Shown here piece after piece: positions 7,172 to 13,062 of a stretch of DNA of 21,247 nucleotides. The stretch covers positions 1-21,247 of IMG/VR virus record IMGVR_UViG_3300033552_000064; one strand, given 5' to 3'. The stretch is from a virus. Under the pieces are notes generated by a model that made no database searches, was not told where the DNA came from, and saw only the letters and a program-made list of their open reading frames with translations. The position numbers were made by a program, and so were the translations under genes. Every line of letters starts with the position of its first letter. Position 1 is the first letter of the stretch.

Positions 7172-7191
7172 CACGGCTATCTATAGCCGTG
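7172..7191. repeat. 9-bp inverted repeat across the terminase stop codon
   Basis: CACGGCTAT (7172-7180) and ATAGCCGTG (7183-7191) are perfect arms separated by CT. The terminase stop codon (7181-7183) lies at the centre and the -35 of the portal promoter is 12 bp downstream. There is no U-tract, so it is not a standard terminator. It may be an operator or an mRNA end-stabilising hairpin. Confidence 0.7.
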
Positions 7192-8599
7192 GTATAGGGG
7201 ATGATTGTTCCATTGTTGGAAGCGCGAATGTCGGCAGTTGAATTTGCTTAGACAGCGTGTTAAACGCATCTGAGGTTGCGTCAACTTGGTCGTCTTTCTG
7301 GTTGCGTGAGCCTGTAAAGAACTCCAACTCAGTAAAGAAATCATCGTTCCAAGACCCACGAACAACCTTCACACTGCCGCTCTCTGCTAGTGCACAGAAC
7401 GGCAAGAAGCGTTGTGTCTTGCCAGAGTGACCAGACATGACAACTGACCTGGCTGCTATGCCGTTTTCAGCTAGCGTGCGGATATAGAAGGCGTTAGCTG
7501 TTTTGCCACCTGCCCCTGAGTCGCGTGGAATGGTGACTTGGCAATCACTCTTACCATCCAGTTCGCCAACGTCCACCAGCGCCTTGATGACGCCGTCTGT
7601 TAGCTTCCTGAAGCGTTCTACATGCTCAATGTAGTAGATGCCGTACTTGTCTCTGGACATCTTGACTCCTGCAGTCCAGTCGGGGTCGGGGTTGCTTTCG
7701 CTAGGCACAGATGCTGCCAAGTCCCATGATCGGACACAGGCCAGAGCATTGACAGGCGGGTGATCTACAATCTCGCACCAGTCGCGGCTAAAGAAGCTAG
7801 CGCCTTCGGCGCGGGCTGTCCATGAGCCTTGTAAAAACCTAAGTTGGTTTACGCGAGGCTGGGATAACAGATTGGCAAGGTATGTCGGATTGTTCTTTAG
7901 AAGAATAGGGTTATCAACCACCGTCATAGGGATAAACCTAAATGACAGAGGCTTAGTCGCGCCACCGTAGGTTTTGATAAGATCTTCTTTTGATTCTGAC
8001 CAGAACATCTTCCCGCTGATATTGACAAAATACCGGGTGATATGTTCAGTCCCCGGCTTTGGTATGCCCGTCTCAGAATCTAAGCAATACTCTACCCAGT
8101 TGTATAAAAATGAATCCCTAGATGGGTTGCAAGTAAGCGTCATGTTGAGATGACCCTTATACTTTGCACTACGCAGGCGAGACAGAAGGAACAGTATCTC
8201 ACCTTCCGTAAACTCAGCCGACTCATCTATCAGGTAGTGGGTAACCTGAAGTCCCTGCCACTGCTCTAGCTTATCCGGCAGTGCTGCAAATTGGATTGTA
8301 GCGCCGTTGGGGAATCTCCACGTAAGAGATTGCACCCCAAAGACGCCGCCGAAATTAGAGTAAATACCCTTTGATTCATCTACAAGTCCACCGCTCAATT
8401 TAAGGACTGGGTAAGAACGTCTAACGATCATTACCCTAGCAGCAGGGTCGTTTATGTACTTGAGGGCTTTTGTGAGACACGTATAAGACTTGCCAGAGCC
8501 AGCGCCTCCGCCCGTAAGCAGGATGTCTGTGTTATCGTCCATTAGGACGAGTCTCTGTTTTTCGCTACATGGGCCGAAGTGCTTTACTCCATCATCCAT
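7181..8599 (-). CDS. Terminase large subunit
   Basis: This packaging motor has an N-terminal ATPase and a C-terminal RNase H-like nuclease that cuts concatemers. I start it at ATG 8599 (MDDGVKHF), which has GGAGGGG five bases upstream; a longer form would start at TTG 8617. In the 472-residue form Walker A is GGGAGSGKS (30-38), Walker B is HYLIDESAEF with Asp125/Glu126, and the coupling motif is LTCNPS (155-160). The nuclease domain shows RSWDLAAS with the first metal-binding Asp and a late DDQVDATSDAFN with the last. It starts 14 bp after the zinc-repeat nuclease gene. No canonical small subunit is adjacent. Confidence 0.93.
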   Translation of the reverse strand: MDDGVKHFGPCSEKQRLVLMDDNTDILLTGGGAGSGKSYTCLTKALKYINDPAARVMIVRRSYPVLKLSGGLVDESKGIYSNFGGVFGVQSLTWRFPNGATIQFAALPDKLEQWQGLQVTHYLIDESAEFTEGEILFLLSRLRSAKYKGHLNMTLTCNPSRDSFLYNWVEYCLDSETGIPKPGTEHITRYFVNISGKMFWSESKEDLIKTYGGATKPLSFRFIPMTVVDNPILLKNNPTYLANLLSQPRVNQLRFLQGSWTARAEGASFFSRDWCEIVDHPPVNALACVRSWDLAASVPSESNPDPDWTAGVKMSRDKYGIYYIEHVERFRKLTDGVIKALVDVGELDGKSDCQVTIPRDSGAGGKTANAFYIRTLAENGIAARSVVMSGHSGKTQRFLPFCALAESGSVKVVRGSWNDDFFTELEFFTGSRNQKDDQVDATSDAFNTLSKQIQLPTFALPTMEQSSPIPRL

Positions 8600-8613: not shown

Positions 8614-9735
8614 TCAATTTTTAATATCTTTGAGTACTCCAATTAGTTGGTCGATTTCCATATTCAGCCACTGCCTGTCAACAGACATAAAGGATTCAGA
8701 ATACCCGTCAAATTTAGCTGTTGGGCTTTTATACTTTAAGCGCAATATGCGAAGTAGCTTTGTCTCAATGTCAGAGCATTCTTGCCCATCTTCAAAACTG
8801 AACTCTTTTACGACTGTAAATTCACTTCCAAAACTTCCACTGATACGTTTAGCGCGGGATAGGGTGGTCTTATTGGTTATCCCTACCTTAGTGATATCTC
8901 CGCAGGTCATTACATACAGCGTTCCAGGCTTGTTATAGTCAAAACCATTTAAGCCGCAGCTGGCGCAGCCACTACCTCGCAAGTGCACGTAAGGTATCTG
9001 CTTAAAGTGCCCATGCTCACGACACAAAATATTTACGTGATGGTGTGTTCCATTGTAAGAAATATCAGAGTAGTTATACTTCTCGCCGTGCACTTGTTGC
9101 GCCTTAGATATGAAATCCTCTTTAGAGAGTGACCCATGCCCGCACTTATTACAGCCTTGACCAGAAAGGTGAGCGCCGGGAGTCATTGTAAAACTCCCAT
9201 GCTTCTTACAGTTTATACTAACCTTAGTTCCAGAGTTTATGTAGGCAACTTCAGGGTACTCGTATGTGTCGCCGTGAATGGCACGGGCTTTTCCAATAAA
9301 ACCCTCTGTCCCTGTAGAACGTGCTGTTGCACAAGTCAAAAGTCCGCACGTAGCACAGCCTGAACCGCCAAGGTGGTGGTTGGGCATTTGCTGGAAGCCC
9401 CCATGTACGGGGCAAGTTATAGTCACAGGCAAGTAAGAACTGGCATAGACTGTTTTTGCATAGTCGTACTTGTCGCCGTGTACTTGTTCCGCCTCTTTTA
9501 AGAATGTACGGCTGTCTTTCCTAAACAACTTTGACATGGCCGCCTGCTTACAGGCTGCGCAGCCTGTACCCCTTAGGTGGTTGTTAGGAGTTACCATGAA
9601 GTTGCCATGCTCTTTGCAAGCAATGACGACCTTTTCCTTTGAACTTCTATACTCGACTAGGTCATAGCCGTAGCGCCCACTGTGTTTTTCTCTGGCTCTT
9701 GAAATAAAGCTCTCAGATGCCGTTGTGCTTGTCAT
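8614..9735 (-). CDS. Four-zinc-finger (DUF723-like) protein with GIY-YIG-like C-terminus, likely homing endonuclease
   Basis: Four repeats of about 55 residues lie at residues 10-64, 78-132, 146-200 and 208-262 (numbered from the first ATG, 9738). Each reads roughly F-x3-A-x3-H-G-x2-Y-x-Y...C-x2-H-G-x-F...P-x2-H-L-x-G-x-G-C-x2-C. Each carries a C-x2-H and a C-x2-C pair, for example C41/H44/C60/C63 and C239/H242/C258/C261, so four zinc sites are expected. The last 100 residues begin with GTLYVMTCGDITKVGITN, resembling GIY-YIG/T5orf172-type nuclease domains, and contain FDGYSESF. I prefer the second of two tandem ATGs because AGGAGG is only one base from the first. The gene interrupts the usual small-large terminase pair, as mobile endonuclease genes do. 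Its Shine-Dalgarno lies in an inverted repeat. Confidence 0.8.
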   Translation of the reverse strand: MTSTTASESFISRAREKHSGRYGYDLVEYRSSKEKVVIACKEHGNFMVTPNNHLRGTGCAACKQAAMSKLFRKDSRTFLKEAEQVHGDKYDYAKTVYASSYLPVTITCPVHGGFQQMPNHHLGGSGCATCGLLTCATARSTGTEGFIGKARAIHGDTYEYPEVAYINSGTKVSINCKKHGSFTMTPGAHLSGQGCNKCGHGSLSKEDFISKAQQVHGEKYNYSDISYNGTHHHVNILCREHGHFKQIPYVHLRGSGCASCGLNGFDYNKPGTLYVMTCGDITKVGITNKTTLSRAKRISGSFGSEFTVVKEFSFEDGQECSDIETKLLRILRLKYKSPTAKFDGYSESFMSVDRQWLNMEIDQLIGVLKDIKN

Positions 9736-9739
9736 CATA

Positions 9740-9817
9740 CCTCCTCAGGTAGTAAGAGTATTTAAGTCAAGGCACCCACACCTGAGGAGGGTTAACGCAG
9801 ATGTCTTGACTTAAATA
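9740..9817. repeat. Interleaved inverted repeats at a ribosome binding site
   Basis: Arm A CCTCCTCAGGT (9740-9750) pairs exactly with ACCTGAGGAGG (9780-9790), 11 bp. Arm B TATTTAAGTCAAG (9759-9771) pairs exactly with CTTGACTTAAATA (9805-9817), 13 bp. The order A-B-A'-B' is that of a pseudoknot. On the minus-strand mRNA, arm A contains the AGGAGG of the zinc-repeat nuclease gene, so pairing would hide its ribosome binding site. An extended -10 (TGTTATGAT, 9818-9826) lies next to arm B', so transcripts starting there would lack part of B'. Confidence 0.85.
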
Positions 9818-9828
9818 ATCATAACACA

Positions 9829-9855
9829 AAAATCCCCGCAGCTTGCGCTGCGGGG
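9829..9855 (-). terminator. Terminator after the tRNA cluster
   Basis: CCCCGCAGC and GCTGCGGGG form a perfect 9-bp stem with a four-base loop (9834-9855). On the minus strand it is followed by ATTTTTG, giving an intrinsic terminator for the transcript that carries the tRNAs. The stem is symmetrical and could also act weakly on the other strand. Confidence 0.85.
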
Positions 9856-9970
9856 CTCTAAAATAAAATAGGTGTTACAGCGCCACTCTGCCTATGCCTG
9901 TAACTTAGCTGACCATACTGTCAACCCTCTCCGCTGCACCCACACAGCGTGGGTGTTAATTCTTAAATTC

Positions 9971-10050: not shown

Positions 10051-10123
10051 TGGTTGCGAAGTCTGGAATCGAACCAGTCCGTGAGCTTATGAGGCTCCAG
10101 TGCTACCATCACACCCACTCGCG
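10051..10123 (-). tRNA. tRNA with CAT anticodon (Met; initiator-like end)
   Basis: The 73-nt gene has anticodon loop CTCATAA (CAT), D arm GTGT/GCAC, T loop TTCGATT and an encoded CCA. With the CCA end fixed, the acceptor begins CGCGAGT and ends CTTCGCA, so position 1 is C and position 72 is A, the unpaired pair that marks bacterial initiator tRNAs. The three consecutive G-C pairs of initiator anticodon stems are not present (AGC/GCT instead), and there are mismatches at 7-66 and 49-65. It may be elongator Met, initiator-like, or Ile2 with modified C34. Identity within CAT tRNAs is open. Confidence 0.82.
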
Positions 10124-11734: not shown

Positions 11735-12523
11735 ATGAAACGCATGAAGACGCCACCCAAGCGCACAAGTACCAGTGCGCGCCGCGTAAAAGACAAATTT
11801 ATCCCGGAGATGGAGGAGTCAAATGGTGAGCGCTACGTCGCGGCAATGCCGAGGCTTGAAGCAAAAAACCAGAATCAGAGGCTTGCCTTGTCCTTCCTGA
11901 ATGAGGGGCGGGCAGTTACCTTCCTTACGGGCAGCGCCGGAACTGGCAAGTCCATGATTGCAGCCTATCACGCCGCCAAAATGCTTAAGTCGAAGAAAAT
12001 CGAGAAAGTCTATCTGGTGCGCCCTGCCGTCGCGGTAGGCAAGAGTATTGGGCTTTTGCCTGGTACGCTTGAAGAGAAGCTGGCCCCCTACTTTGCACAG
12101 ACCGTGGCCCACATGAGTAAGTTCTTGGGTGATGGAGCAATGCAATATATGCTGGAAAAGAAAGTTGTCGAGTTGAAGGCTGTAGAGTATCTCCGTGGCA
12201 TGTCCTTTGAGAATTGCCTCGTAATCTGTGAAGAGTGCCAAGGCTTTACCGCTGAGGAGTTTGAGATGATGCTTACAAGGCTTGGCGAGAACTGCATGAT
12301 TGTGTTCACTGGGGATGAGAAACAAAACGACCTTAAGGGTATGAGCGGACTGCGAAAGACGCTTGACATGTTCAGCCGTGCGCTGGCTGATGCGCCTGAC
12401 TACATGCTAGATGAAGATTTGGACGAGGTTGAGTCTGGTATCGGCATTGTACATTTCACCCCAGCAGATGTTGTCCGTTCCGGCCTTACCCGCGCCTTCG
12501 TTAAACTCTACTACAACGCATGA
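11735..12523 (+). CDS. PhoH-like P-loop ATPase
   Basis: The 262-residue protein is a PhoH-family ATPase. It has a basic N-terminal tail (KRMKTPPKRTSTSARRVKD), then Walker A GSAGTGKS (66-73), a YLVRPAVAVGKSIGLLPG segment, a Walker B-like CLVICEECQ (161-169, Cys-Glu-Glu where most PhoH have Asp-Glu-Ala) and sensor FTGDEKQNDL. The YLVRP...G.LPG signature is diagnostic. PhoH proteins are common in phages and some act as RNA or DNA helicase partners; the exact role is unknown. The start is uncertain: ATG 11735 or 11744, neither with a good Shine-Dalgarno. It begins the rightward operon with a homing endonuclease and a ClpP-like protease. Confidence 0.9.
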   Translation: MKRMKTPPKRTSTSARRVKDKFIPEMEESNGERYVAAMPRLEAKNQNQRLALSFLNEGRAVTFLTGSAGTGKSMIAAYHAAKMLKSKKIEKVYLVRPAVAVGKSIGLLPGTLEEKLAPYFAQTVAHMSKFLGDGAMQYMLEKKVVELKAVEYLRGMSFENCLVICEECQGFTAEEFEMMLTRLGENCMIVFTGDEKQNDLKGMSGLRKTLDMFSRALADAPDYMLDEDLDEVESGIGIVHFTPADVVRSGLTRAFVKLYYNA

Positions 12524-13062
12524 GGGAGGAAAAGCACGGATTAACTGGTAGTGATGCCAGCAGGTTACAGCGTAAAGCCTACCGCGCATGGTCTGACCTC
12601 ATAGGAAGGTGCTACAGGGAGTCCCACACATCATACAGCACCTACGGAGGGCGAGGAATTACAGTGCAAGAGTCTTGGAGGCACTCTCCCGGCACCTTTT
12701 ACGCATACGTCTCAGGCTTGGCAAACTTCTCGCCTGAGTACAGCCTAGACAGGATTGACAATTCCAAAGGCTATCAGGAGGGGAACTTGCGTTGGGCCAC
12801 AAACGCGGAGCAATGCAGAAATCAGGGTAAGCAGGATAACAATACCTCTGGTAAGTGCGGGGTCACATGGTACTACAACGAAACTGGAGGTACAAGAGCG
12901 ATAGCCTGGTGGTACGTAGACGCCAAGACGAAGAGTAAATCTTACTCTGTCAAGAAGTTCGGCCTACTTCCTGCTTTTAGCATGGCCTGTCAGTTCAGGG
13001 ATGCAAAGATTGCACAGCTTAATGCTGGCGGTGCAGGATACACAGATAAACACGGAACATAA
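12520..13062 (+). CDS. HNH homing endonuclease with AP2-like domain
   Basis: The 180-residue protein has an N-terminal RKAYRAWSDLIGRCYRESHT segment and STYGGRGI, followed by the family HNH-type core YSLDRIDNSKGYQEGNLRWATNAEQCRN (residues about 74-101). A C-terminal part (GKCGVTWYYNETGGTRAIAW to ACQFRDAKIAQLN) resembles an AP2 DNA-binding domain. Such proteins are free-standing homing endonucleases that spread into related phages lacking the gene. It overlaps the PhoH stop by ATGA and has no good Shine-Dalgarno, so it is translated by coupling. It separates PhoH from the ClpP-like gene, consistent with insertion into a former PhoH-ClpP junction. Confidence 0.88.
   Translation: MREEKHGLTGSDASRLQRKAYRAWSDLIGRCYRESHTSYSTYGGRGITVQESWRHSPGTFYAYVSGLANFSPEYSLDRIDNSKGYQEGNLRWATNAEQCRNQGKQDNNTSGKCGVTWYYNETGGTRAIAWWYVDAKTKSKSYSVKKFGLLPAFSMACQFRDAKIAQLNAGGAGYTDKHGT

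Follow-up and report, generated by a model that had tools for sequence, protein, structure and literature searches.

The window analysed here, the whole stretch of 21,247 nucleotides of a 21-kb virus record (IMG/VR IMGVR_UViG_3300033552_000064), belongs to a tailed phage whose terL, portal and capsid-type genes all lie on the minus strand. tRNA genes are located upstream of a minus-strand nuclease gene, and between the terminator of the tRNA operon and this endonuclease gene lies the leader described below (Table 1). Where the tRNA operon ends there is a two-hairpin RNA (9934-9871, minus strand) that has no Rfam match in the window; its stems vary in their letters, with about 7 bp kept. At 10055-10122 on the minus strand there is also a weak fourth tRNA, which with 29.8 bits in Rfam is just at the threshold and is not called by ARAGORN. 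A second endonuclease-like ORF (12520-13062, plus strand), HNH/AP2-like by eye and without a Pfam hit, starts at an ATGA that overlaps the stop codon of PhoH and has no leader. The terL gene of the window has no intron and adjoins the endonuclease gene, an arrangement that, by analogy, resembles the one seen in collaborative homing. Among the related contigs, whose handles begin with L, group I introns are present in terL of L001/L005, L003 and L004, and also of L180 (L036) and L182 (L026). In the loci read (L003, L005 and L004) they sit in the P-loop codons, where terL of L004, and possibly that of L019, also carries an intein-like insert.

Table 1. Positions of the leader, its parts and neighbouring features in the window, and of related hairpins on other contigs.
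Feature	Position	Strand	Remarks
terL, terminase large subunit	7181-8599	-	next downstream gene; ATG about 15 nt past the nuclease stop codon
Endonuclease gene	8614-9738	-	374 aa; treble-clef repeats (DUF4379/DUF723); PHROG 681 endonuclease; ATG at 9738
S2 3' arm ACCTGAGGAGG with SD	9740-9750	-	pairs with the anti-SD arm
L3 linker, S1 to SD arm	9751-9755	-	5 nt in the window; up to 23 nt in homologues
S1 3' arm	9756-9776	-	contains arm B of the preliminary description (9759-9771)
Anti-Shine-Dalgarno CCTCCTCAGGT	9780-9790	-	apical loop of S1
S1 5' arm	9800-9820	-	contains arm B' of the preliminary description (9805-9817)
Intrinsic terminator of the tRNA operon	9834-9855	-	9-bp stem, T tail; directly upstream of the leader
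Conserved two-hairpin RNA, end of the tRNA operon	9871-9934	-	upstream of the terminator; a neighbour, outside the lock
CU-rich-loop hairpins	L005 4885-4949; L015 3251-3315; L036 2051-2117; L013 943-1011		also L018, L020, L024, L025, L117, L346

On the minus strand, which is the relevant RNA, the elements of the leader follow each other in the order B-A-B'-A', where A is the anti-Shine-Dalgarno (anti-SD) and A' the Shine-Dalgarno (SD) arm. They derive from a perfect 11-bp repeat (9740-9750/9780-9790) and a 22-nt repeat of 86% (9753-9774/9802-9823) that holds a perfect 13-bp core (9759-9771/9805-9817); since the two repeats interleave, they cannot be drawn together as nested hairpins. Both had been reported in the preliminary description of this DNA, which had also placed the AGGAGG of the nuclease gene within a repeat arm, and indeed the SD of ORF 8614-9738 lies inside 9740-9750. 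Stem B had been given as 13 bp, and although this core is real, the helix (S1) comprises 21 positions (9820-9800 with 9776-9756, two of the 20 counted columns being mismatched) and has the anti-SD in its loop. The letters of the postulated internal extended -10, TGTTATGAT, exist at 9826-9818 of the minus strand, but the promoter scan gives no minus-strand sigma70-type site at this place, and no equivalent common to the homologues was seen. The SD is additionally part of a small local hairpin (e.g. AACCU-GAGG-AGGUU), the closing pairs of which vary among the copies.

A descriptor scan for an SD, an anti-SD and an interleaved stem gave the window a score of 71.8. When about 640 kb of related loci were dinucleotide-shuffled in three rounds, the highest score was 65.4, which was the single hit above 55. 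The leader RNA also folds better than its shuffles (z -3.07). Relatives were taken from 80 related uncultured contigs obtained by TerL-based searches, and besides the window the scan identified L001/L005/L014/L048 (one phage or near-identical copies), L003/L031, L004/L043, L013, L017, L026, L036 and L055, with L070 scoring weaker. A first covariance model, which knows S1 only, added L070, L079, L117, L189 and L196/L322, and a second model, with L070, L189 and L322 among its sequences, added L071 and supported L079 and L117. At the gathering score, Rfam has no family for the leader (the only matches are to tRNA and group I introns). A covariance-model search of 18 isolate genomes gave no convincing leader match (best E 0.024), blastn of the leader against phage isolates gave no match, and neither did a search with a fixed L1 motif pattern. 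The pattern CCTCCTCAGG-N25-55-CCTGAGGAGG is present in nine viral stretches, one of which (L196) is a new copy, and has many bacterial genome matches besides. L195, L198, L199 and L201 were rejected as copies of the leader, as they contain a different repeat in which CCTCCTCAGG ... CCTGAGGAGG extend across a promoter-like stretch before a small ORF, which represents a separate anti-SD arrangement.

The pairing of the leader was assessed in two alignments. In a composite alignment of nine copies paired by hand, two-sided changes are found in 25 of the 30 pairs, a result attained by 0/500 shuffles; they comprise 16/20 pairs in S1 and 9/10 in S2, the arms of which were picked per sequence in this set, favouring its pair count. 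The paired cells amount to 94.8%, against 71.5% in shuffled and 41-51% in slid structures. When 12 copies are aligned to the S1-only model, S1 is 92.9% paired, with two-sided changes in 18/21 pairs, and S2, which this model ignores, is 84.7% paired, with two-sided changes in just 3/10 pairs; again, none of 500 shuffles attains the totals. The preliminary description had named a lack of compensatory changes in homologues as the observation that would speak against RNA control, and such changes are present in both alignments. For example, L005 (TerL 73% identical) has a different endonuclease (HNH) between its tRNA genes and terL, and the parts of its leader have the same order and different letters. 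Between copies, 5-17 of 20 positions of the S1 arms are identical. The fact that the letters of the stems vary widely while the pairing stays argues for RNA; judging from these alignments, it is the pairing, and not the sequence, that is conserved. The covarying pairs, together with the paired state of the SD in the predictions given below, mean that an RNA pairing that hides the ribosome binding site (RBS), as had been proposed, is well supported by the sequence comparison.

In related uncultured phages, the fold is found in front of endonuclease genes from at least four PHROG families. The downstream gene belongs to PHROG 681 in the window, L055 and L322, to PHROG 953 in L003, L036 and L070, to PHROG 374/3377 in L005 and L026 (the nuclease of L017 is a close homologue), and to PHROG 59 (NUMOD4-HNH) in L189, whose leader lies within a tRNA array and is separated from terL by about 5.7 kb. 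The suggested link to homing-type endonucleases thus extends to several families: every intact downstream gene scanned has a PHROG endonuclease match, its homing role being predicted from sequence. Among terL loci sorted by hand, which share ancestry and are not independent, the leader is present in 11 of the 16 with an endonuclease or a clear remnant versus 1 of the 30 without (p 3e-6). L011 and L012 (TerL 79-80%), the nearest relatives that have no endonuclease, have no leader either, and their terminator is followed by a simple SD and terL. L013 has kept the leader together with a decayed endonuclease, as the short ORF behind it ends in VEITD, like the C-terminus of the HNH of L003 type; in L004 the leader is kept with an 8-codon ORF, and in L079 the hairpin is present with no obvious SD. 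The possibility that it is a native terL leader was rejected, because it is missing from the endonuclease-free L011 and L012, occurs with an endonuclease remnant in L013, and lies at a distance from terL in L189.

The leader is lacking at five endonuclease loci of the same site, and a plain promoter-like leader precedes two relatives of the L017 nuclease, L097 and L098. A different leader is found before same-site endonucleases in L027/L054, L028, L033 and L029, in which the loop of a hairpin is complementary to sequence touching the SD (CTATCAC/GTGATAG, CTACAC/GTGTAG and CCACA/TGTGG); GTGGCGAA is conserved in the leaders of L027, L028 and L033. Elsewhere, the SDs of DUF723-type nucleases are paired more than those of neighbouring genes (p 9e-4). 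The identity of the leaders is 0.55 within and 0.54 between endonuclease families, and follows TerL weakly (Mantel rho 0.26, p 0.04). Because leader identity is independent of the endonuclease family and tracks TerL weakly, we read this as a sign that leader and ORF have been exchanged separately, and that the leader would be a shared part of the cassette.

Regarding the folding, S1 is the pseudoknot-free MFE structure in 11 of 12 copies, with the anti-SD displayed in its loop and the SD partly paired (0.44-0.61). In RNA starting just before the anti-SD, and hence devoid of the S1 5' arm, the SD is paired at 0.79-1.00 (1.00 in the window). These values would also agree with a switch in which S1 and an A:A' hairpin exclude each other, such that nascent S1 leaves the SD open (on) and the absence of the S1 5' arm results in A:A' (off), and the shortness of L3 in the window and L005 (only 5-6 nt) would favour it too. 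We nevertheless consider such a competition unlikely, given that the anti-SD is not buried in a stem but exposed for pairing in the loop of S1, that the A:A' fold of the window already beats S1 by 9 kcal/mol, and that L3 is long enough for a pseudoknot in most copies. Across homologues L3 measures 5-23 nt. By a simple length estimate, L3 can span S1 in seven copies with every outer S1 pair closed; three copies would need one or two of these pairs to open, and the window and L005 would need four. With this range of L3, both stems can coexist after opening of 0-4 outer pairs, which goes against the earlier suggestion that the loop is short for a stable pseudoknot and that the stems may therefore compete. 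The internal promoter was likewise dropped as a switch: a 5'-truncated RNA keeps the anti-SD, and its SD is still paired, so such a start would not turn the gene on. The S2 duplex alone is worth -11.5 to -20.8 kcal/mol, and two interleaved helices joined by geometrically possible loops amount to a predicted H-type pseudoknot. We infer that both stems would coexist in one RNA and that translation would be lowered. A pseudoknot with the SD as one of its arms would be the most economical reading of the models, and it implies that every transcript containing the anti-SD would keep the gene off.

Several of these phages have long hairpins with CU-rich loops (gUUUCUCCUUCUCCUUGg) upstream of the terminator of the tRNA operon (Table 1). 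In L036, L117 and L346 the loop is complementary to a downstream GTGGAGA segment that precedes no ORF; tRNA-array hairpins pairing with this segment are referred to as class I. The leader might be a duplicate of such a structured RNA, with a role in processing or protein binding and with a secondary overlap with the SD, as class I hairpins have the same architecture and are weakly matched by the same models (E ~1e-4 to 1e-2), the leader models find a few of the CU-rich-loop hairpins weakly, and leaders often lie directly after a tRNA operon. However, the 3' partner holds the SD a few nt before the start codon in all model copies, and no leader is seen where the endonuclease is absent, which makes this origin improbable as a full explanation. 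The leader may descend from the ORF-less hairpins or have them as a partner, and their existence means that the fold may have another primary role, which lessens our confidence in translation as its sole role. That the repeats are recombination remnants or DNA operators for a repressor is very hard to maintain, and operator palindromes were rejected: there are perfect inverted repeats near the gene start, and I-TevI has an operator overlapping its late promoter (available text of PMC2988022), but the S1 arms, with 5-17 of 20 positions identical, keep their pairing and not their sequence.

We consider it likely that the leader is a cis-acting, long-stem H-type pseudoknot that functions as a translational lock on free-standing homing-type endonuclease genes. 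The hairpin S1, of about 21 bp, would show the anti-SD in its loop, and this loop would pair with the SD located just 3' of the hairpin (S2), generating the long-stem pseudoknot; this would block 30S binding, and the parasitic endonuclease gene would probably be silent. A terminator is present upstream of the leader in most homologues, and since the leader begins within a few to about 20 nt of it, it is probably part of read-through transcripts. The endonuclease would then be read mainly from transcripts passing the upstream terminator, on which the lock would keep the gene off. The lock might be opened if S1 were cleaved, with RNase III as one candidate enzyme, or if transcripts started 3' of the anti-SD in the manner of T4 I-TevI. 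It is possible, and we put this forward with less conviction than the lock itself, that the leader represents an undescribed portable family of cis-regulatory RNA that was taken up by different endonuclease genes and that is related to the ORF-less hairpins at the tRNA-array end, which may regulate it.

In the published cases of homing endonuclease genes with a hidden RBS, as given in the available text of two sources, each gene has its own local hairpin (PMC2988022, PMC3014915). One covarying fold across four endonuclease families suggests instead a reusable regulatory module of the selfish cassette that is separable from the enzyme. The covariance model can be used to find hidden endonuclease cassettes in uncultured phages, and the leader offers a testable RNA lock, which raises the question of the event that opens it.

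The same texts describe hairpins on upstream-initiated RNA that contain the RBS of I-TevI, I-TevII, I-TevIII and segB of T4, and of mobE of Aeh1 (PMC2988022, PMC3014915). As in these systems, the SD of an endonuclease gene is predicted here to be paired in the leader RNA. Unlike in them, the SD does not sit in one simple hairpin, as its partner forms part of the loop of a separate, roughly 21-bp hairpin, and one fold precedes several unrelated endonuclease families. No late promoter of the T4 kind was identified here by a scan for sigma70-type sites, which gave none on the minus strand at the leader. The hairpin of seg43(25) of Aeromonas phage 25 is named as one that does not sequester its RBS (PMC2988022, available text). 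Like the leader, it is a hairpin of great stability that directly adjoins a homing endonuclease RBS on the 5' side, but its stem is about 9 bp against about 21 bp here, and its 6-nt loop, GATAAA, has no anti-SD whereas the loop of the leader carries one; by this loop sequence it was rejected as the same structure. In the gene 32 leader of T4/T2, binding of gp32 is nucleated by a pseudoknot that precedes the start by about 67 nt (PMC3014915, available text). Our predictions likewise place in a phage mRNA leader a pseudoknot that would act on translation initiation, with the difference that one of its arms is formed by the SD itself. A long hairpin before the RBS is also known from the phage lambda N leader, which the present leader resembles in this respect, and from other leaders processed by RNase III, where cleavage could alter translation. 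The available text of the T4 review reports no RBS-hiding pseudoknot of an endonuclease gene, a statement that concerns this review and not the wider literature. Taken with the predicted structures, we read the leader as one that would do the same job as the hairpins of I-TevI and mobE by means of a different fold.
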